Part shown: piece after piece, positions 8,670 to 15,946 of the stretch
Numbering within the stretch: the first letter of the stretch is position 1
Layout: every line of letters starts with the position of its first letter
Source: Desulfoprunum sp.
GTDB lineage: Bacteria > Desulfobacterota > Desulfobulbia > Desulfobulbales > Desulfocapsaceae
Direction of reading: 5' to 3'
Assembly: GCA_030696435.1 (NCBI GenBank)
Contig: JAUYSF010000179.1
Coordinates: 1 to 15,946, forward strand
DNA length: 15,946 nucleotides
The notes under the pieces: generated by a model
Database searches by the model: none
What the model was told of the DNA's origin: nothing
The model's input: only the letters and a program-made list of their open reading frames with translations
Made by a program: the position numbers and the translations under genes

Positions 8670-9749
8670 ATGAAAAATCAGCTCACCACATTCCGTGATG
8701 CGATCTTCATCGTCACAGAGGAACGCTCCTGTCCTATTTATAATGTAGGCGATGAATTCAAGATTGAAAATTTCTGCCTCTCCGTCCCCTTCTATAAACC
8801 GGGCTGCCTCTATCTATCGCAGGTAATTGCCAATATCATCTCATCAAAGGAGAGTTACGGCGGCGTTCCCAAATTTGGCGGGCACAAACCGATATTTGAT
8901 TGCGGCGGCTGCGACGGCTTGATCCACTTTGAATTCAAAAAGGAAAGGGATTTTGCCACCCCGCAGATGAAGTTGCTCAATGAGACGGAAGAGCGGCAGC
9001 GAAGGTTGCATCTTGATAAATTTTTTGGCGTATTGCGAAACCTTGATTTCTTCGAATCCCTTGATGACGATGCCTTGAGCGATCTGACCATGCTCCTTGA
9101 GATGAGGACCATCCCCATCGATAAGGTGGTTATCAAAAAAGGAGACACCGGGAGTCATCTCTATATTGTGTTGATGGGTCGGGTAGCGGTGATGGCCAAA
9201 GACGGTTCAAGAATTACAGAAATGGGGGAGGGAGAGATCTTCGGTGAGATGAGCCTTCTCTCCGGCGAACCGGTGTCCAGCTCCATTCACACCGTTTCCG
9301 ACACCCAGCTGGCCATGCTGAGTAGCAAAAACTTTAAACATGTCCTTAAAAAGTATCCGGTCTTACAACTTTTCCTTTTTAAAATGCTGGTCGAACGGGC
9401 CCAGATCTTGACCCTGCGATCGGGTAATATCACCTCAGGCATGACAGGGGAACTGGCCGAAATCACCACCATGAGTCTCTTTCAGCTTATCAAGTCGGCA
9501 CAGAAGACCGGGCGGATTGACCTGGCCCTTGAGCAGGGGCGGGCAATGGTCTTTTTCAGAGAAGGTGAAATCATCCATGCCCGTTTCCTCAAACTTCGGA
9601 ACAAGGATGCGGTGTTTGCGCTGCTCAATGAGAAAAGCGGTCGCTTCACCTACACCAAGGGAATCCCCAAAGAGCTCGACAACCTGCCGCCCATTGGCGG
9701 TTTCAGAGGAATGTTGACAGAGGAATTACAGGGGATAGATGAGCAATAG
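8670..9749 (+). CDS. Cyclic-nucleotide-binding domain protein with DUF4388 (PATAN) domain and N-terminal Cys-rich module
   Basis: A 359-aa cytosolic signalling protein with three parts. Residues 1-90 form a small module with CPIYNVGDEF, CLSVPFYKPGC and a CGGC pair (Cys78, Cys81; also Cys21, Cys36, Cys46), which could bind metal or sense redox. Residues ~117-245 are a CAP_ED/cNMP-binding beta-roll (FFGVLRNLDFF, IKKGDTGSHLYIVLMGRVAVM, GEGEIFGEMSLLSGEPVSSSI). The phosphate-binding cassette keeps FGE (Glu193), but the Arg that contacts the cyclic phosphate (PR[ST]A) is Val202. Residues ~258-330 are a DUF4388/PATAN domain (MTGELAEITTMSLFQLI, RAMVFFREGEIIHARF). No HTH is present, so it acts by protein contacts rather than as a CRP-type regulator. 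AAGGG precedes the ATG. The gene stands alone between gaps on both sides. Confidence 0.85.
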   Translation: MKNQLTTFRDAIFIVTEERSCPIYNVGDEFKIENFCLSVPFYKPGCLYLSQVIANIISSKESYGGVPKFGGHKPIFDCGGCDGLIHFEFKKERDFATPQMKLLNETEERQRRLHLDKFFGVLRNLDFFESLDDDALSDLTMLLEMRTIPIDKVVIKKGDTGSHLYIVLMGRVAVMAKDGSRITEMGEGEIFGEMSLLSGEPVSSSIHTVSDTQLAMLSSKNFKHVLKKYPVLQLFLFKMLVERAQILTLRSGNITSGMTGELAEITTMSLFQLIKSAQKTGRIDLALEQGRAMVFFREGEIIHARFLKLRNKDAVFALLNEKSGRFTYTKGIPKELDNLPPIGGFRGMLTEELQGIDEQ

Positions 9750-9895
9750 GTTAACAGGCACACTTCCCCTCTTCTTAAATGCAGAGATTGGGGTTTGCTC
9801 TAGCATAGCCGAACTGCCGGTTTGCATCAATACGGGGAACCAGTTCGCTGCATACCATCTGAAATTTCCCCAAAAGCTACCGCGGGCTATTAAAC
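9750..9895. other. Left junction of the accessory region, with an imperfect hairpin
   Basis: No gene is visible. An inverted repeat pairs AGC-C-GAACTG (9807-9816, one bulged C) with CAGTTC-GCT (9841-9849) across a 24-base loop and has no T-run. At the right end GTTGTGC (9896-9902) resembles the integron R' core (GTTRRRY, six of seven) and would mark the upstream edge of the first cassette. I could not find a matching R''/L'' arm for it. Confidence 0.35.
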
Positions 9896-9911
9896 GTTGT
9901 GCGACAAAGAA

Positions 9912-11372
9912 ATGACACCCAAAATTGTCAAATCAGAGGGAGTAACACCCACAGAAAGATTGCTCGCAGATCTTTGTGATCGATCTTTTCTGAAATTATG
10001 GAGTTATCCCAATCCATTCAAAGAGGATAAAGATGAACTCTGCGACCTACTGGCTGTTTTTGAAAATCATGTATTCATTTTCTTCGACAGAGAAAACTTG
10101 GCATTTTCAAAAGAAGGCAATGATCAATTAATCAGCTGGAATCGATGGAAGAAAAAAGCTATTGATTCTCAAATTCGCACAGCACACGGAGCGGAACGGT
10201 ATATTAGAAGCGGTCGAAAAATCTTTCTGGATAAAGATCTAACGATTCCATTTCCTTTTGATATTGATTGCCAAAAAATGGTGGTGCACAAAATCATTAT
10301 CGCGCACGGCGCGAAAGACGCTTGCGAAAATTTTTCTGAAAACAATGTTTATGGAAGTCTAGGTATTTCCTATGGCCAAAACGAGGCCAAGTTACCATTT
10401 CCCTTTATGATAAACATAGACAAAGAGACCCCTGTCCATGTGTTTGATAGTTATAACCTTCCAATTATCTTTTCGGAATTAGATACTTTTTACGATTTTT
10501 CCTCATATCTTGATGCGAAGGTTGAGGCAATTAAAACATACGATATGTTGTCTTATTGCGGTGAGGAAGATTTATTAGCTCACTACTTTCTCAATTTTGA
10601 TGAGTCAAGAAACAAGCATTTTATTGGCACTTCGGAAAAAGACATCAATGGCGTTATGATTGGCGAAGGTGAATGGAAAGATTTCATTGAATTAGAAATA
10701 TATAAAAGGAAAAAATTTGCTGATAAAATTTCTTATCATTGGGATAGACTTATCCAAATCACCTGCCAAAACACACTTGACGGAACAATAGGTGGATTTT
10801 CTCCATTGATGGGGCGAAGTGCCATCAATGAAATGGCAAAAGAGCCTCGCTTTCACCGTCGTGCGTTATCCGAAAGGATGATTCAGTCGATCCGTAATTT
10901 TCCAGAGACACCGCAACGATTAATGAGAAACTTGTCGTTCATGCCGTCATTTTACAAAGACAAGGGATATGTGTTTTTGCAACTCAAGGTAGACGGCATC
11001 ACCAAGTGTGAGAATGAATACCGTTCTAAAAGACAAGCCATGCTTGAAGTAGCCTGTGGCGCAGCAAAAAATAAGTTTGATCATTTGAAAACAGTTGTTG
11101 GCATCGCAATTGATGCTCCAAAGTATTCAAGGACCAACGCAGAAGATTTCATCCTAATGGACTGTACTGATTGGACAGATGAGCAAAGAGAGTATTATGA
11201 AAAGGCAAATGAAGGTCTTGCGTTCTTCAAGACTGGTGTTGTTGAGCAAAGAACTGTGTCTGAGTTCCCTGATAGCAAAAAGGCCAAAAGTCCAATGAAA
11301 GTTGGCAGGAATGCCCAATGTCCTTGCGATTCGGGGAAGAAATACAAAAAATGCTGCATTAGGAATAAATAA
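9912..11372 (+). CDS. SEC-C motif protein with a possible nuclease-like N-terminal domain
   Basis: A 486-aa protein from the ATG at 9912, or 491 aa from a TTG at 9897 that overlaps the possible cassette core site; neither has a clear ribosome site. The C-terminus is a SEC-C zinc motif: VGRNAQCPCDSGKKYKKCC, ligands Cys475, Cys477, Cys486 and Cys487 (491-aa numbering). Near the N-terminus TERLLADLCDRSFLKLWSYPNPFK, then KDELCDLLAVFENHVFIFFDREN looks like the core of a PD-(D/E)XK-type fold: an acidic residue in a first helix, Asp50, then a hydrophobic strand ending Asp64-x-Glu66. The usual lysine is absent, so activity is uncertain. ...SWNRWKKKAIDSQIRTAHGAERYI follows, as in proteins I have seen with this N-terminus. 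The middle ~300 residues I do not recognise. Codon use is AT-rich, unlike the flanks. A defence or nucleic-acid role is a guess. Confidence 0.75.
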   Translation: MTPKIVKSEGVTPTERLLADLCDRSFLKLWSYPNPFKEDKDELCDLLAVFENHVFIFFDRENLAFSKEGNDQLISWNRWKKKAIDSQIRTAHGAERYIRSGRKIFLDKDLTIPFPFDIDCQKMVVHKIIIAHGAKDACENFSENNVYGSLGISYGQNEAKLPFPFMINIDKETPVHVFDSYNLPIIFSELDTFYDFSSYLDAKVEAIKTYDMLSYCGEEDLLAHYFLNFDESRNKHFIGTSEKDINGVMIGEGEWKDFIELEIYKRKKFADKISYHWDRLIQITCQNTLDGTIGGFSPLMGRSAINEMAKEPRFHRRALSERMIQSIRNFPETPQRLMRNLSFMPSFYKDKGYVFLQLKVDGITKCENEYRSKRQAMLEVACGAAKNKFDHLKTVVGIAIDAPKYSRTNAEDFILMDCTDWTDEQREYYEKANEGLAFFKTGVVEQRTVSEFPDSKKAKSPMKVGRNAQCPCDSGKKYKKCCIRNK

Positions 11373-11381
11373 TATGAATCC

Positions 11382-11444
11382 GCACAACCATCCGCTGGAA
11401 TGGATGCGCGAAAAACCGCGGCTCCCTACAGCGGCACGTTGAGC
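11382..11444 (+). other. attC-like recombination site 1 (after the SEC-C gene)
   Basis: A 63-bp nested hairpin starting 9 bp after the SEC-C stop. The outer boxes R'' GCACAAC (11382-11388) and R' GTTGAGC (11438-11444) are complementary at six of seven positions, and R' fits GTTRRRY exactly. Three-base spacers (CAT / CAC) are followed by the inner arms CCGCTG (11392-11397) / CAGCGG (11429-11434), then a top stem CGCG-AAAAAC-CGCG (11407-11420). The layout R-spacer-L-variable top-L-spacer-R is that of integron attC sites. The R' box is also the left insertion edge of the element at 11441-11726. Confidence 0.6.
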
Positions 11445-11726
11445 CTGTAGAAAAAGTCTATTTGCGTTTCTTACGGCTCGGTTTCATTGGAAAACGTATT
11501 GGGAAAATCTTAAAAATCGATCTAGACACCGCTTAACTGCGCAAAAATCTAGTTGTTTTGTTTGATTTCATTATGTTTTTTAGCATCAACCGCATAAACT
11601 CAAGGGTGGTCGAGCCCATAACTTGTTATTATTGTGCAAAATATTAATCTGCTACCAAGTTTTGTCGGGTATAGAAGCCTCGAAAAACCGGAAATTGGAA
11701 AAATAGGGACCTTTTCCTACAGGCTC
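11441..11726. mobile_element. Non-autonomous element with terminal inverted repeats (MITE or IS remnant)
   Basis: The left end GAGCCTGTAGAAAAAG (11441-11456) and the right end CTTTTCCTACAGGCTC (11711-11726) are inverted copies at 15 of 16 positions. The similarity continues inward with gaps (GTC, then TATTT). The trinucleotide GTT lies directly outside both ends (11438-11440 and 11727-11729), which fits a 3-bp target duplication. The interior of 286 bp is AT-rich and I found no transposase reading frame, only short ones. Removing the element and one GTT joins attC1 directly to GTTGGCTGAAAGG and the brnT promoter region. I cannot assign it to an IS family. Confidence 0.6.
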
Positions 11727-11749
11727 GTTGGCTGAAAGGCGTATATATC

Positions 11750-11767
11750 GCCATACATATATATGGC
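11750..11767. promoter_or_regulatory. Palindrome upstream of brnT-brnA, probable autoregulatory operator
   Basis: A perfect inverted repeat GCCATA-CATATA-TATGGC lies 31 bp before the brnT start. It sits inside a run of alternating AT that offers several possible -10 hexamers. BrnA-type ribbon-helix-helix antitoxins, with or without BrnT, repress their own promoters through palindromes at this position. The assignment rests on position and symmetry. Confidence 0.5.
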
Positions 11768-11798
11768 AAATCGTATTTCATTGTGCTAAGCTCAATCT

Positions 11799-12087
11799 AT
11801 GAAGAAAACACGATTTGAGTGGGACGAAAATAAGGATGCTGAAAACCAGAAGAAACATGGAGTACAGTTTTCTTTGGCACAGTATGCCTTTGCCGATCCC
11901 AGCCGTGTCATAGCCGAAGACCTCGCTCACAGTGAAACTGAAAAACGCTTTTTTGTTTCGGCGAGGTCGAGGGTGGTGTTCTCACTGTCCGATTCACCTG
12001 TCGCGGCGGTGTTTTCGTATAATTGGCGCCGGCTACTGGCGAAAGGGAAAGGCAATTTATGAGCGCGAAAATCAAATACACCAATGA
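11799..12087 (+). pseudogene. brnT: brnT-like RNase toxin gene, apparently frameshifted twice
   Basis: The N-terminal half is clearly BrnT (RelE-fold ribonuclease toxin): FEWDENKDAENQKKHGVQFS, FADPSRVIAEDLAHSETEKRFF. After that the frame from the ATG leaves the family and ends at a TGA at 12060-12062 (87 aa). The expected C-terminus is present in other frames. One base missing in the T-run at 11949-11954 would restore CFGEVEGGVLTVRFTCRGGV. One more missing near 12012-12017 would restore IIGAGYWRKGKAIYERENQ, ending with TGA at 12085-12087 and overlapping the brnA start as in intact operons. So two single-base losses (or sequencing errors) separate this from a normal ~95-aa toxin. The broken frame lacks the catalytic C-terminal strand residues, so toxin activity is unlikely. 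Confidence 0.75.
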
Positions 12088-12292
12088 GCCTATTGATGCC
12101 AAGGTCATTAGAGACTTTCTCCCACGGCCCGAAGAGCTTGCTTTCCGGGAAGAAGGGGTGAAAGTTACCATTGCTCTCAGCAAAAAGAGTGTTGAGTTCT
12201 TTAAATCTGAGGCAGCTAAGCACCATACTCAGTATCAGCGCATGATCCGCAGACTTATCGATACCTATGTGGAAACCTACGACAAACCATAG
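12059..12292 (+). CDS. brnA: BrnA-family antitoxin (ribbon-helix-helix)
   Basis: A 77-aa intact protein, usual for BrnA: MSAKIKYTNEPIDAKVIRDF, then LPRPEELAFREEGVKVTIALSKKSVEFFKSEAAKHHTQYQRMIRRLIDTYV. The C-terminal half is the RHH/CopG-like DNA-binding domain; the N-terminal half wraps the BrnT toxin. I start it at the ATG at 12059 (AAAGG 7 bp before) and not at an in-frame ATG-like codon at 12023, because the extra residues translate the brnT C-terminal region in the wrong frame. It binds and neutralises BrnT and represses the operon. With brnT apparently broken, it may now serve only as a repressor or as an anti-toxin against related toxins elsewhere. Confidence 0.9.
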   Translation: MSAKIKYTNEPIDAKVIRDFLPRPEELAFREEGVKVTIALSKKSVEFFKSEAAKHHTQYQRMIRRLIDTYVETYDKP

Positions 12293-12345
12293 GAAATCAA
12301 AAGACTGGCAAAATCAAACCCCTTCAAAGGAAAGCCTATCATAAT

Positions 12346-12435
12346 TTCCAACAGCCAGTCCAGCCGACACCGGGAAGGCTTCGTTCTTGTTTGCGATTGT
12401 CAGTGGCCCGGCGCGGCTGACGCTGATCGTTAGCC
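12346..12435 (+). other. attC-like recombination site 2 (after brnTA)
   Basis: R'' is TTCCAAC (12346-12352) and R' is GTTAGCC (12429-12435). The L arms are GTC-c-AGCCG (12358-12366) and CGGCTGAC (12414-12421), an 8-bp stem with one extrahelical C, the strand-marking bulge typical of attC. The stem continues with CCGGG / CCCGG inside, and the ~30-base top is variable. The spacers between R and L are unpaired. The site lies 53 bp after the brnA stop and 13 bp before the next ORF, as expected for a cassette junction. R''/R' complementarity is only partial (four of seven). Confidence 0.6.
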
Positions 12436-12448
12436 TTCAAATAATATA

Positions 12449-13159
12449 ATGATAGAAATCCTTACCTACGCTTGGCATATTTTCCGTAATGAAATTAAAT
12501 ACATTACTCTTCTTTCAGCCCCGTTTACTCTGCTAGCATTTCCTTCGTATTTCATTTCTCAACCTACTGAAGATAAAATCGCTCTTCCTACAATCATCGG
12601 GCTAATCATATATTTGATTGGCTTCTCAATGTATCTTTCCACATTGATATTTTTTATGTCTCAAAAATATCGAAACAAGTTGGAACCAGTTAAAGCAAAT
12701 ATTATTAATGGCTTAGTATATACGCCTTTATTAATGCTCACATTGGTTATTGCAAATTCTCCAATCATTGCTGCTGGCATAATAATATTTAGTTCGATGT
12801 CATTACAGTACATTGCATTTCCATTATTAATACTGGGTATGTACATCTCACTAAAATCAACTTTCGCGCCTTTTCATTTGATATTGGAAGGTTATAAGCC
12901 TTTGGCGGCAATAAGATGCAGTTTTTACAGCACTAATGGGAAAGTAGTAAAAATCATACTGGTATCAATACTATTTTATTTTTTCTCATCGCTAGTAGAG
13001 AGCTTAACAAATTTCAAAACAAGGATTGAACCATTTAAGGTGTTGATTTTTTTCATTGGAGTTGCAGTAACCATGCTAATGGTAGCGATTCAGCAGATTG
13101 CGGTTTTTAAACTTTATATCAACAGTTTTGAGCAGATAGACAAAGAAATAATTGGCTGA
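12449..13159 (+). CDS. YciC/UPF0259-like integral membrane protein (cassette gene)
   Basis: A 236-aa protein with about six hydrophobic segments and short polar tails. The order AWHIFRNEIKYITLLSAPF at the start, then LILGMYISLKSTFAPFHLILEGYKPLAAIRCSF around residues 127-159, resembles the UPF0259/YciC group of inner-membrane proteins of unknown function. The resemblance is by eye and the sequence is strongly AT-biased. The ATG lies 13 bp after the R' core of attC-like site 2 and has no ribosome binding site, so it may be leaderless or poorly expressed. Its TGA stop (13157-13159) falls inside the R'' box of attC-like site 3. Transport or membrane-stress roles would be guesses. Confidence 0.7.
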   Translation: MIEILTYAWHIFRNEIKYITLLSAPFTLLAFPSYFISQPTEDKIALPTIIGLIIYLIGFSMYLSTLIFFMSQKYRNKLEPVKANIINGLVYTPLLMLTLVIANSPIIAAGIIIFSSMSLQYIAFPLLILGMYISLKSTFAPFHLILEGYKPLAAIRCSFYSTNGKVVKIILVSILFYFFSSLVESLTNFKTRIEPFKVLIFFIGVAVTMLMVAIQQIAVFKLYINSFEQIDKEIIG

Positions 13160-13218
13160 CAAAAACGCTCCAGCGGCCACCGCAAACAGCGATGATCTCG
13201 CGGAGCAAACCGTTATGA
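13154..13218 (+). other. attC-like recombination site 3 (after the membrane protein gene)
   Basis: A 65-bp site: R''-like GGCTGAC (13154-13160), unpaired A-rich spacer, L'' GCTCC-a-GCG (13167-13175), a 23-base top, L' CGCGGAGC (13199-13206), unpaired AAACC spacer, then R'-like GTTATGA (13212-13218). The L stem is 8 bp perfect with one extrahelical A, the hallmark bulge of attC. The R boxes are degenerate (five of seven each to consensus). It overlaps the stop codon of the membrane protein, as happens in real cassettes. Confidence 0.55.
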
Positions 13219-13284
13219 CCCAATTCAAATTTTTCCAAACAATGCTCGCTCCCAGACCATTCAGGCAAAATGTGAATAGCCGCT

Positions 13285-14094
13285 ATGACTAACGAGGTAT
13301 TTTTTAAAGATCAGAGATTGCCCTTTGTGGAATGCCGATATTCAAACAGTAGTCTCCGAACGTTCAAAGCTCATATGCACAGAACATTCAGTGTCGGAGC
13401 CGTTGACCGTGGTCGGGTGGAGTATTCTGTTGGCGGCAGGACGGCCATCCTGTCAATTGGCGCTTTGGCGCTGATCAATCCGGAGGCCCTGCACTCCTGT
13501 AATGCCATCGACAGGGAAGGCCGGAGCTACTACATGATGTATCTCGATGTTGATTGGTGCCTGGAGGTGCAGAAGGCCCTGTGGAATGTCGACGCGTTTG
13601 TTCCGGTTGAGGAAATCCGACTGGATGATACCCTTGTATACAATCAGTATTGCGCAGTCGCAGAACGACTGATGGATCGTAACGTCCATCTGCTGGAAAA
13701 AGAGCACCTGCTTGTTGAACTGGTCTGGGAGATTTTCGGGCGGGTGTGCAGGCCACAAAGCAAGCAAGCGGGTAGTCCACAAAATATACAGGATCTCAAG
13801 TCCCTCCTTGGCGGCAATCTCAGGGATGATCTGACGCTCGAAACCCTGGCTCGTCAGTGGGGCGCCAATCCATATACCCTCCTTCGCCAGTTTAAGGCAA
13901 ATATCGGCATTACGCCCCATGCCTATCGCATGAACTGCAGGGTCGAGCAGGCCCGGCAATACCTGCAACAAGGGATGGATATTGGTGAGGCCGCCCTTGA
14001 GTGCGGCTTTTTTGATCAGAGCCATCTGCATCGCCACTTCAAGGCTATGACAACCGTCACCCCGCAGGAATACCGCGTCAATTTTATCCAATAA
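13285..14094 (+). CDS. AraC-family transcriptional regulator
   Basis: A 269-aa protein with an N-terminal cupin-type sensor domain (about residues 1-150; HMHRTFSVGAVDRGRVEYSVGG, then LINPEALHSCN) and a C-terminal double helix-turn-helix. The first HTH is LTLETLARQWGANPYTLLRQFK. The second is MDIGEAALECGFFDQSHLHRHFKAMTTVTPQEYR. It is followed 47 bp later by a LysE/RhtB exporter in the same direction, the common pairing in which the regulator senses an amino acid and activates its exporter. The effector is unknown. The ATG at 13285 has no clear ribosome site. Composition returns to that of the chromosome left of the array. Confidence 0.93.
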   Translation: MTNEVFFKDQRLPFVECRYSNSSLRTFKAHMHRTFSVGAVDRGRVEYSVGGRTAILSIGALALINPEALHSCNAIDREGRSYYMMYLDVDWCLEVQKALWNVDAFVPVEEIRLDDTLVYNQYCAVAERLMDRNVHLLEKEHLLVELVWEIFGRVCRPQSKQAGSPQNIQDLKSLLGGNLRDDLTLETLARQWGANPYTLLRQFKANIGITPHAYRMNCRVEQARQYLQQGMDIGEAALECGFFDQSHLHRHFKAMTTVTPQEYRVNFIQ

Positions 14095-14141
14095 TTTCCC
14101 CACGGACAGTTCTAAGATGCTTCTTAAAAAAGGAGAAGTAT

Positions 14142-14750
14142 ATGGAATTTGTCCTCATTGCGACCGCTCATTTTCTTGCCCTCTTGAGCCCTGGTCCCGA
14201 CTTTTTTCTCATCATGCAGGCCTCCCTGAGAATGCCACTCCGCTACGGTGTTGCAGTTTGCGCAGGGGTCGCCACGGCCAATGCAGTGTATCTCGTCTGC
14301 GCTGTCCTTGGCCTTGAGGTTATAAAAGAACTGGGCTGGCTTATGACGATCCTGCAATATTGCGGGGCGTTCTATCTTGTTTTTCTGGGAATAATGCTGT
14401 TGCGAGCGCCCAATCGGCCACTGTTCTCGGATGAACCGGGTCATATTTTACAGACTCGTCATCTGGGCCGACAGTTCCTCCTCGGCTTCATGTCCGGCAT
14501 TCTCAATCCTAAAAATGCTATTTTCTACCTGTCGCTTTTCACGGTCATGGTGTCGGAGCAGACGGGTTTTGCAACTCGATGCCTTTATGCACTGTGGATG
14601 ACGACTGTGGTGTTTGTCTGGGATGTCCTGGTTGCAAAAGTTATCAGCCGAGGCCGGATGAACTCATTGCTCTCGCGTGGGGTGTTTCTGGTGGAAAAAT
14701 TCTCGGGGCTGATGTTGCTCTTTTTTGGGATTATCCTGCCGTTTGTCTGA
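14142..14750 (+). CDS. LysE/RhtB-family amino acid exporter
   Basis: A 202-aa inner-membrane protein with five to six hydrophobic segments, the family length. It opens with LSPGPDFFLIMQASLR (the PGP signature after the first helix), followed by GVAVCAGVATANAVYL. It has FMSGILNPKNAIFYLSLF (the NPK motif) in the middle. Such proteins export amino acids or their derivatives (lysine, threonine, homoserine lactone, leucine) using the membrane potential. AAAAGGAGAA lies just before the ATG. It probably forms a transcription unit with the AraC-family gene upstream. The next gene is convergent, and a repeat element fills the gap. Confidence 0.92.
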   Translation: MEFVLIATAHFLALLSPGPDFFLIMQASLRMPLRYGVAVCAGVATANAVYLVCAVLGLEVIKELGWLMTILQYCGAFYLVFLGIMLLRAPNRPLFSDEPGHILQTRHLGRQFLLGFMSGILNPKNAIFYLSLFTVMVSEQTGFATRCLYALWMTTVVFVWDVLVAKVISRGRMNSLLSRGVFLVEKFSGLMLLFFGIILPFV

Positions 14751-14783
14751 ATTTTCTCAATAATTGATCCGGTCTTCTTCCAA

Positions 14784-14902
14784 TTCCAAATCAAGATGAG
14801 AACAAGAAGGCAAGCGCGCAGCGACGAGACAGTACATTGAGTACGGCGAGGAGCCGCACAGCGTAGCCGACGAAGTTAACGTTTGATTTGGAAATGGAAT
14901 AA
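14784..14902. repeat. Dispersed imperfect-palindrome repeat, long copy (possible bidirectional terminator)
   Basis: A 119-bp element between convergent genes, ending one base before the sthA stop. Perfect 11-bp inverted ends, TTCCAAATCAA (14784-14795 region) and TTGATTTGGAA (14883-14893), flank a GC-rich core (ACAAGAAGGCAAGCGCGCAG, then GCCGACGAAGTTAAC). The core matches the element at 1627-1696 in inverted orientation, with 45 extra bases here. It has no credible coding content; frames through it give Pro/Ser/Arg-rich peptides. The transcript can fold through its ends from either direction, so a shared terminator or an RNA-processing site for the exporter and the transhydrogenase is plausible. 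Confidence 0.8.
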
Positions 14903-15946
14903 CTACTTTCTGCCAAAGCTGTCTTCTTTGACAGGAGAAACTATCTTGCGTGTGCATTGGACATCTTCCGGTGAGCCCTTGTCAATCTGGTTTGCGGCGG
15001 AGAGGGCAGCAATCTTCAAGGCTTCGGAATAGGTCGGGTAGTTGAAAATATTGTCGACGAAGATATCAATCTTGGCGTTGTGGATCAGAGCCATCTGGGC
15101 AATATGAATCACTTCGGTTGCCCCGCCACCGAAAATATGGACCCCGAGGATCTCGCGGGTGTCGCGATGGACGATCATTTTGAGCATCCCTTCGCACTCT
15201 CCGGTGATCTGGCCTTTTGGCAGCTCGTGGTACATGCACCTGCCAACCACGATCTTGTAGTCTAAGGCTTGGGCTTCTTCTTCAGTAATGCCCACATAGG
15301 ATATTTCCGGGATAGTGTAGATGCCCACCGGGAAGATCTTTGGAAACGACTCGATCCGTTTTTTCATGCCATTGAGGGCGGCGAGTCGGCCCTGGATAAT
15401 CGAGGTCGCGGCCAGACTCGGCCAGCCGATCACATCGCCCACCGCGTAGATATTCGGGTTTGAAGTCTGGTACAGTTCATTGACCTGGATATAGCGATAC
15501 TCGTTCAGGCCGATGCCGGCCTTGTCGATATCCAGGCCTCCGGTATTCGCTTCACGGCCCAGGGCGAAAAACAGACAATCGGCCGTGAAGACTCGGCCAT
15601 CTTGTAAGAGCAACTTGGCTTCACGACCGTTTCTCTCTACCGTGAAGTCTCCGCAATTGCTGATATAGTTTATGTTGCCATTGGGGAAATTGTCCCTCAA
15701 CTGTTCAATGATCTCCTGATCGATGAATTTCAGCAGCCTCTCGCCTCTATCCAACAATGTCACTTTGACGCCGAGAGCAGCGAAGATGGTGGCATACTCC
15801 GAGCCGATAACCCCGCCACCGAGGATGATCATGGTTTTGGGTACTTGCTCGATGCCAAGGATTGAGGTGGAGTCGACGATCACTTGATGGTCAAAGGGGA
15901 TTTCGGGAGGATTGCGAGGTTGGGAACCGGTGGCGATAATGATTCG
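14903..15946 (-). CDS. sthA: Soluble pyridine nucleotide transhydrogenase-like flavoprotein (partial, N-terminus outside window)
   Basis: The reverse-strand frame is open from the right edge (15946) to TAG at 14903-14905, giving about the C-terminal 347 residues. An internal GTG at 15883 is not the start, because the protein continues upstream with IIIATGSQPRNPPEIPFDHQ, an FAD-domain motif. Visible motifs are MIILGGGVIGSEYATIFAALG (NADPH Rossmann), NPNIYAVGDVIGWPSLAATSIIQGR (second FAD site) and the dimerisation segment NYPTYSEALKIAALSAANQ. The usual His-Pro-Thr of disulfide reductases reads Tyr-Pro-Thr, as in SthA, which lacks the active-site disulfide. It would interconvert NADPH + NAD+ and NADP+ + NADH in the cytosol. 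The first FAD site and redox-cysteine region are not visible, so a related reductase cannot be excluded. Confidence 0.8.
   Translation of the reverse strand, partial: RIIIATGSQPRNPPEIPFDHQVIVDSTSILGIEQVPKTMIILGGGVIGSEYATIFAALGVKVTLLDRGERLLKFIDQEIIEQLRDNFPNGNINYISNCGDFTVERNGREAKLLLQDGRVFTADCLFFALGREANTGGLDIDKAGIGLNEYRYIQVNELYQTSNPNIYAVGDVIGWPSLAATSIIQGRLAALNGMKKRIESFPKIFPVGIYTIPEISYVGITEEEAQALDYKIVVGRCMYHELPKGQITGECEGMLKMIVHRDTREILGVHIFGGGATEVIHIAQMALIHNAKIDIFVDNIFNYPTYSEALKIAALSAANQIDKGSPEDVQCTRKIVSPVKEDSFGRK

Follow-up and report, generated by a model that had tools for sequence, protein, structure and literature searches.

The window analysed here, a 15,946-bp stretch on contig C80 of a 494-contig draft genome (G000) of Desulfoprunum sp., a relative of sulfate reducers, carries at positions 9896-13218 of the plus strand a confirmed array of three gene cassettes, each closed by an attC-type site. 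With a probability of roughly 0.8, we regard this array as an attI-headed CALIN, that is, a platform cut down to an attI core and three cassettes, without an integrase gene of its own. Such an element is a known kind in a little described variant. The assignment builds on a predicted attI of the type found at the genome's intI, cassette starts at a GTT core, putative attC hairpins and an integrase on another contig. A first-pass annotation of the window had proposed a cassette array without adjoining integrase, with the same two ends and three plus-strand units each ending in an attC-type hairpin. All of this was borne out, the hairpins by an arms scan, by shuffles and by similarity to attC and cassettes at other loci. 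The annotation had overlooked both the attI and a MITE-like element (Table 1); its description as integrase-less holds for the locus and is incomplete for the genome, which encodes an integrase on contig C200.

Table 1. Features of the array and its flanks (window positions)
Feature	Position	Strand	Remarks
Left flanking gene	8670..9749	+	Cyclic-nucleotide-binding and DUF4388 protein (Pfam); outside the array
attI core	9856..9902	+	CCCCAAAA..TATTAAACGTT type; GTT crossover 9896-9898; model R1
Cassette 1 gene, SEC-C motif protein	9912..11372	+	~486 aa; Pfam SEC-C; predicted start codon
attC site 1	11382..11444	+	R'' GCACAAC, R' GTTGAGC; end of inserted element completes R'
MITE-like element	11441..11726		286 bp; strand not assigned (.); 16-bp terminal inverted repeats; sits in attC1 R' box
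brnT toxin gene	11799..12062	+	Pfam BrnT_toxin, profile positions 1-47 of 77; frame possibly disrupted
brnA antitoxin gene	12060..12292	+	Pfam BrnA_antitoxin, weak; predicted start
attC site 2	12346..12435	+	CAGCCGAC-type L stem, extrahelical base; degenerate R boxes
Cassette 3 gene, hydrophobic protein	12449..13159	+	236 aa; putative membrane protein
attC site 3	13154..13218	+	L stem with extrahelical base; degenerate R''
AraC-type regulator and LysE-type exporter	13285..14750	+	Right flank; Pfam; no attC proposed 3' of them

The attI core and the surroundings of the array

Window attI was found by R1, a sequence-only attI model from whose building the window had been excluded (E = 2.7e-9 over the window and 6.4e-7 over the genome); the likeness spans 47 bp. 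It shares 82% identity over 38 bp with the attI beside intI on C200, and nothing further is common to both loci. Between the cores, identity is 76% over 34 bp, and the upstream 300 bp agree at 50%, the level of unrelated DNA. A Pc-like promoter, sought as TTGnnn-N16-18-TAnnnT at -260 to -120, is absent upstream of the window attI; 19 of 27 attI loci have such a sequence with a score of at least 8 in this range. No integrase remnant was found upstream of the window attI, and its former linkage to intI is hence deduced from orphan attI of other genomes.

Other genes fill the 9855 bp left of attI. The window holds no match to an integron integrase (best tblastn hit of IntI, E = 2.2), and none adjoins the array. 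By default, IntegronFinder 2.0 calls a CALIN from at least two clustered attC (PMC9024848); here three sites are counted by arms scan, shuffles and homology, and one, at E = 0.58, by covariance model R2 alone. As in a complete integron, an attI heads the array; an intI next to attI and cassettes is missing. Insertion at an attG site would give a left boundary that is neither attI nor attC, and this boundary is occupied by the attI core.

The AT-rich composition first noted against GC-balanced flanks was also seen, GC being 39.9% in 9899-13218, 53.5% in the left flank and 51.1% in the right one. The left flanking gene has homologues in relatives and is 78% identical at the DNA level to a genome of the same genus (G002), and homologues of the regulator and exporter genes on the right adjoin each other in G016. 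A synteny search for empty sites found the flanking genes together in none of the relatives searched. Apart from the attI on C200, matches to the array within G000 occur only on C192, to the MITE-like element and to attC site 2. Rfam gave three sub-threshold matches over the window, none of them relevant.

attC sites, inserted element and cassettes

The arms scan, trained on 30 attC from outside the window that themselves scored 27.5-39.3, was run on both window strands and gave 27.9 for site 1 (rank 1), 20.0 for site 2 (rank 8) and 24.7 for site 3 (rank 2). Sites 2 and 3 lie under all training sites, and site 1 beats the lowest one only. When the three gaps were shuffled preserving dinucleotides, the observed score was reached in 0/400, 3/400 and 0/400 cases for sites 1, 2 and 3; comparison DNA (251,084 nt, both strands counted), which may itself contain attC, had 2 matches of at least 24.7 and 34 of at least 20. 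R2 was built on joined attC arms, full-length alignments having been discarded for misaligned stems. The covariance check came close to failing: over the window R2 reported site 1 alone and left sites 2 and 3 unreported. These misses are not decisive, since R2 misses or cuts long-loop sites of its own training set (L161, L150). Among the first motif finders, one found site 1 only, one was unspecific and one recovered none of the three at threshold.

Folding of the bottom strands gave z-scores of -2.65, -0.97 and -1.72 for sites 1 to 3. R boxes pair in site 1 only; for sites 2 and 3 they had initially been described as degenerate. Extrahelical L-stem bases, first noted for two sites, appear in the folds of sites 2 and 3. 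In G077:C114, an attC ~2 kb from intI agrees with site 2 at 91% over 81 bp, and sites like it occur in G079, G102, G069 and on C192. Sites 1-3 are attC-type sites, predicted from their sequence and weak as motifs.

By its predicted structure, the gap after gene 1 is a MITE-like element that has inserted into the R' box of attC site 1. The element is flanked by GTT at 11438-11440 and 11727-11729, a possible target duplication, resembles copies on C192 and in G034 internally, and has its ends matched in other genomes. A copy in G016 with a similar left end, whose right end was not found, adjoins an IS1182-type transposase (NCBIfam IS1182, 253 bits vs a cut-off of 270). We had considered 11441-11726 as an ORF-less cassette and dropped this in view of the terminal repeats, the GTT on both sides and the transposase-bearing relative.

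Where cassette 1 and the brnTA cassette have homologues at other loci, sequence identity breaks off at the predicted left crossover or no more than a few bases away. At their left boundaries, both thus behave as gene cassettes, i.e., crossover-bounded units found in other contexts elsewhere. For cassette 1, an 86% DNA match in G247 runs from 9898 to 11398 and is preceded by GAT, not by attI; no site there scores at least 25, the best reaching 22.4. A 67% homologue in G064 has attC-scoring sites on both sides, ~8 kb from the intI of that genome. Matches to brnTA have their starts within 11726-11735, with 11726 for G243 and 11728 for G017; the BrnA_antitoxin profile match itself, scanned from 12023, stays below its cut-off (E = 0.0016, 19.2 bits vs 26.1). 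The cassette 3 protein has 56 homologues and matched neither Pfam nor NCBIfam at E<=0.01, and a 67% DNA match in G076 extends from the gene start at 12448 and stops within the gene, short of the cassette boundaries. The SEC-C protein of cassette 1 has 1504 homologues at E<=0.001; plasmid-borne ones are less than 60% identical.

Integrase and orphan attI in the family

TIGR02249 matched six times in G000, over cut-off only on C200 and never on C80. The full integrase gene on C200 (404.9 bits) belongs to a complete integron, in which a Pc-like promoter sequence and an attI of the window type accompany intI and cassettes with attC. C191 carries one cassette with attC and without R1 match.

In the family, 29 attI matches occur in 16 of 93 genomes, the other 77 having none at E<=0.01. 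Most of these (22/29) are orphans, not within 2 kb of intI, and 14 of 21 orphans examined have promoter-like sequence at a constant distance from attI. This attI type lies beside intI in 6 of the 15 orphan-bearing genomes, which covers 9 of 22 orphans; G006, G073 and G075 have orphan matches and no intI over cut-off, and the G069 integrase frame contains a stop. In G017, orphan and intI-linked regions share 467 bp at 87%, from ~20 codons inside intI to the attI crossover. The single 6.75 Mb contig of G063 holds an orphan attI with attC-scoring sites after it, ~607 kb from its intI-linked attI, and the two cores show 2 mismatches in 33 bases. The attI core was better conserved than the upstream 300 bp in 11/11 pairs compared (core/upstream, %: 94/65, 94/67, 82/61, 85/54, 86/62, 88/56, 79/53 and 76/50, with narrow margins at 91/87, 97/96 and 75/69), a comparison biased by the fact that loci were located by their cores. 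The pattern CCCCAAAAN{11,15}TATTAAACGTT occurred in 21 stretches across genome contigs; four read as attI (Desulfopila, Desulfogranum, SB20 and D. benzoelyticum), one in a Deltaproteobacteria MAG is uncertain, and the remaining ones read as chance from their sequences.

Origin of the array and known systems

If the array is an attI-headed CALIN, its cassettes would have been brought in by IntI through attC x attI insertion, the enzyme coming from an intI still in cis at that time or, in trans, from C200; of the C200 integrase they may remain possible substrates. Integrase and promoter region would have disappeared from the platform, and the first attC would have received a MITE-like element, presumably with a preference for attC cores. 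Given these losses and the insertion, expression of the array from outside is probably low now. Since 14/21 orphans have promoter-like sequence without integrase, the window seems to be a worn representative of a recurring class. The cassette boundaries, the G064 homologue and the orphans of G017 and G063 support our assignment. Against it count the R2 result, the unpaired R boxes in sites 2 and 3, the lack of an upstream integrase remnant, the low score of the site at the G247 homologue, the short stretch of 38 bp in common with C200 and the draft state of the genome.

A sub-case, with array and attI in common, is that a complete integron here lost integrase and promoter and is now inert, the C200 integrase no longer acting on it; we give this somewhat less than even odds. 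It agrees with an upstream region unrelated to C200 beside a core at 76%, with the low arms-scan scores, with family members lacking an intact intI, and with the minority of orphan-bearing genomes that pair this attI type with intI. The better conservation of attI cores, biased as it is, and the Pc-like sequence at many orphans speak against it. An attI likeness that is fortuitous, with IntI having placed the cassettes into some ordinary attG-type site of the chromosome, we consider improbable. Such attG insertion has been reported (Loot 2024, as cited in PMC12444791), and the GAT preceding the G247 homologue and the C191 cassette without R1 match would fit; however, a 47-bp likeness at a genome E of 6.4e-7, by a model never trained on this attI, and the absence of matches from 77/93 family genomes argue otherwise. 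That the hairpins arose by chance between fixed chromosomal genes would suit the single R2 hit and the modest z-scores of sites 2 and 3, but is already refuted by the cassette boundaries, and the site 2 copy near intI and the shuffles point the same way, leaving it almost no probability.

Beyond the attI-headed CALIN itself, one integrase gene might serve several dispersed integrase-less platforms in the family, each a ~400-500 bp promoter-attI module driving and refilling its own cassette row, with the window as one at the end of its life. We hold such a distributed system to be rather unlikely, and slightly lowered its odds because only 6/15 orphan-bearing genomes have the attI type beside intI. 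If true, cassette capture and expression would be multiplied without extra integrase genes.

Two explanations of CALINs have been offered, the decay of an integron and the deposition of cassettes at other sites. The family attI signature separates the two locus by locus, and a good number here are attI-headed. The array shares the attI type and attC-bearing cassettes with the complete integron on C200, which differs by its intI and Pc-like promoter sequence. With CALINs as characterised in PMC9024848 it has in common clustered attC, no adjoining integrase and cassettes on one strand, and differs in being headed by attI. A direct precedent is the CALIN with its own attI in Shewanella prophage M16-3, a single phage example (PMC9892861); the arrangement here is chromosomal, in several genomes of one family, and many orphans have promoter-like sequence upstream. 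Xanthomonas CALINs lie at several loci away from intI, with common integrase inactivation, and CALINs in general are said to be mobilisable in trans (PMC12444791); distance from intI is shared, and the excerpt of that report does not mention attI at those CALINs. In Delta-attI gene cassettes of mobile integrons, attI is likewise away from its usual place, but lies within the cassette's recombination site, whereas the attI of the window precedes the first cassette (PMC12901181). With promoter-like sequence and an attI but no integrase, orphan platforms lend themselves to tests of use in trans, for which the single-contig genome G063 and the cultured relatives Desulfoprunum benzoelyticum and Desulfopila aestuarii are available.

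An attI-headed cassette array

Our analyses showed that the window, a 15,946 bp contig of a draft genome of 494 contigs and 3.8 Mb, contains a real cassette array. It is an attI-headed CALIN (an attC cluster without an integrase gene beside it) and thus a variant of a known arrangement; its first attC is interrupted by a MITE-like element. The three hairpins of the first-pass annotation all lie where it had placed them. Its description of the array as integrase-less holds for the immediate surroundings only, as the same genome encodes an integrase on another contig, C200 (TIGR02249, 404.9 bits versus a cut-off of 265). On the cassette side of this intI lies the site CCCCAAAA..TATTAAACGTT, and near variants adjoin intI in three compared genomes (G003, G004, G017). 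An attI of this type is found where cassette 1 begins: it was the sole window match (E=2.7e-9) of a sequence-only model made with eight sites of this kind, window excluded. Desulfoprunum benzoelyticum DSM 28570 and the same-genus genome G001 have one attI match in common.

Features of the array and its surroundings
Feature	Position	Remark
attI	9856-9902	
Cassette array	9896-13218	SEC-C protein, brnTA pair, predicted membrane protein
attC site 1	11382-11444 (+)	
MITE-like element	11441-11726	terminus GAGYCTGTAGRAAAAGTC; also at L189, L201, L203, L204, L208, L209-L217
Inverted repeats, 16 bp	11441-11456; 11711-11726	
brnT	11799-12062	
attC site 2	12346-12435 (+)	
attC site 3	13154-13218 (+)	
Interspersed repeat, ~125 bp	14778-14903	pieces at 1627-1696

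Both attC models were trained on sites outside the window. In the covariance model R2 (16 training sites, joined arms), covariation was clear, with 86.5% paired cells versus 69.4% in shuffles and a covariation score of 0.450 versus 0.165 in shuffles and 0.026-0.092 in slid versions. R2 also picked up additional attC outside its training set, several of them downstream of attI in relatives. In the window it reported site 1 (E=0.58) and left sites 2 and 3 unreported. A scan scoring position weights and pairing of the attC arms (30 training sites; all window candidates on both strands) ranked sites 1, 3 and 2 first, second and eighth; the observed scores of sites 1, 2 and 3 were attained by 0/400, 3/400 and 0/400 dinucleotide-shuffled gaps. 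When the bottom strand was folded, the L stem formed at all three sites and the R stem only at site 1; z-scores were -2.65, -0.97 and -1.72 for sites 1, 2 and 3.

Where the attC motifs leave doubt, homology supports the array. A DNA search of the order's 257 genomes with 9850-13290 matched 84, many matches being short pieces over the SEC-C motif. In G247, 86% identity to cassette 1 extends over 9898-11398, beginning at the attI crossover and reaching into attC1, and is preceded by unrelated DNA; no site in this stretch reached 25 in the arms scan, the best there scoring 22.4. G064 has a more distant cassette-1 homologue (67%), some 8 kb away from its intI and immediately flanked on either side by attC-scoring sites. 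The brnTA cassette recurs in G243 (93%, from 11726) and G017 (89%, from 11728). Site 2 shares 91% identity over 81 bp with a site about 2 kb from intI in G077:C114, and similar sites occur in G079, G102, G069 and on contig C192 of the window's own genome. The brnT family match spans only profile positions 1-47 of 77, the remainder seemingly, by eye, in another frame; the reading frame may be disrupted, or this could be a sequence error.

Both window flanks resemble the genus Desulfoprunum, which NCBI places in Desulfobulbales: the left flanking gene and the reductase at the right end share 78% and 79% DNA identity with the same-genus genome G002. The ~125-bp repeat has ten other places in the own genome among the matches listed (88-94% identity) and further copies in G017 and G007.

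The element behind attC1

The gap behind attC1 measures 354 bp and holds an element bounded by inverted repeats and adjoined externally by GTT at each end. Its left end rebuilds the attC1 R' box, GTTGAGC. Internal similarity was found on the own-genome contig C192 and at two G034 loci, and one end is common to G154, G038 and G016. The G016 copy encodes a 516-aa IS1182-type transposase; its right end was not located. Searching 93 genomes for the terminus without GTT gave nine hits in seven genomes. GTT or AAC, the core of attC and attI, directly borders six of these hits, that of the window among them, but not L209, L215 and L217. Five element ends lie behind an attC-scoring site (window, L189, L201, L203 and L208). 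The element looks like a possible attC-core-targeting IS/MITE family, for which IS1111-attC is a known parallel.

Orphan attI sites in the family

Over the family's 93 genomes, the attI model (E<=0.01) gave 29 matches in 16 genomes. An intI is present within 2 kb of seven of them; the other 22, across 15 genomes, are orphans, farther away or without intI. Fifteen orphans have E-values under 1e-5, and three of the fifteen served as training sites. Contig ends do not account for the orphans, because at least 772 bp of upstream DNA is present at the 21 examined, whereas in six intI-linked loci the start of intI is about 240-480 bp away from the end of attI. In the 2 kb upstream of attI, tblastn (E<=0.5) returned just intI starts besides a handful of borderline hits (E 0.07-0.37), and no intI remnant at the window attI. 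The G017 orphan shares 467 bp at 87% with the intI-linked region of that genome, ending at the attI crossover, and retains approximately 20 codons from the start of intI. The intI start alone is also retained at G072:C105 and G001:C39.

With the score of window site 3 (24.7) as the threshold, a same-strand attC-like site lies within 4 kb in 11/21 orphans, window included, and within 6 kb in the 22nd, in G063; several of these sites belonged to the training set, which was picked by structure and not by position. Comparison DNA gave two such hits in 251,084 nt.

The sequence TTGnnn-N17/18-TAnnnT, which we take as a putative Pc promoter, occurs at positions -180 to -209 relative to the end of attI in 19 of 27 attI loci (two G063 loci left out) versus 105/1350 shuffles, namely at 14/21 orphans and 5/6 intI-linked loci. 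That the attI-headed arrangement recurs together with such a sequence is the part worth pursuing. The window attI has no such sequence upstream. In 11/11 pairs, conservation was higher in the attI core than in the 300 bp preceding it, by small margins in three; this comparison is biased, since the loci were found by their cores, and its control covered 300-bp stretches. For the window pair the core reached 76% and the upstream DNA 50%, the level of unrelated DNA, since unrelated 300-mers give 49.9%. Repeats like TTTCCCAAAAAGCnGC at about -350 from attI in G017, the own genome, G004:C110 and G077 (in G017 also at -236) are similar to the attI core; they could be accessory binding repeats for the integrase.

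Origin and use of the array

Most likely, circular cassettes were inserted successively by IntI at the window attI through attC x attI recombination, a reaction that is established integron biology (PMC9024848, PMC12444791). The integrase may have acted in cis or in trans at the time of capture. For the attI-headed arrangement, a report on Shewanella prophage M16-3 provides one precedent (PMC9892861); on chromosomes of Desulfobulbales, none was found in the passages and abstracts of openly accessible papers that were searched.

The promoter-attI modules in related genomes argue for orphans being maintained to serve expression, capture or both. Their use in trans by an integrase encoded elsewhere would be conceivable. 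However, an attI of this type lies beside intI in just 6/15 orphan-bearing genomes, corresponding to 9/22 orphans; the G001 integrase is merely 34% identical to that of C200, and G006, G073 and G075 have no intI above the cut-off. Genomes without a matching intI argue that some orphans are relics. The window copy, which lacks a promoter and has weak attC boxes, lies nearer the relic end.

Two further loci, C477 of the own genome (L088) and G001:C5 (L087), combine an integrase-less attI, the promoter-like sequence and a following gene. Downstream of attI, C477 has a strong attC (arms score 36.8); at G001:C5 the arms scan found no site scoring at least 22. On own-genome contig C191 (L169, 3915-4695), without an attI model match, one gene that bears an attC (33.5 bits) ends a run of ordinary genes and is possibly an attG-type insertion.
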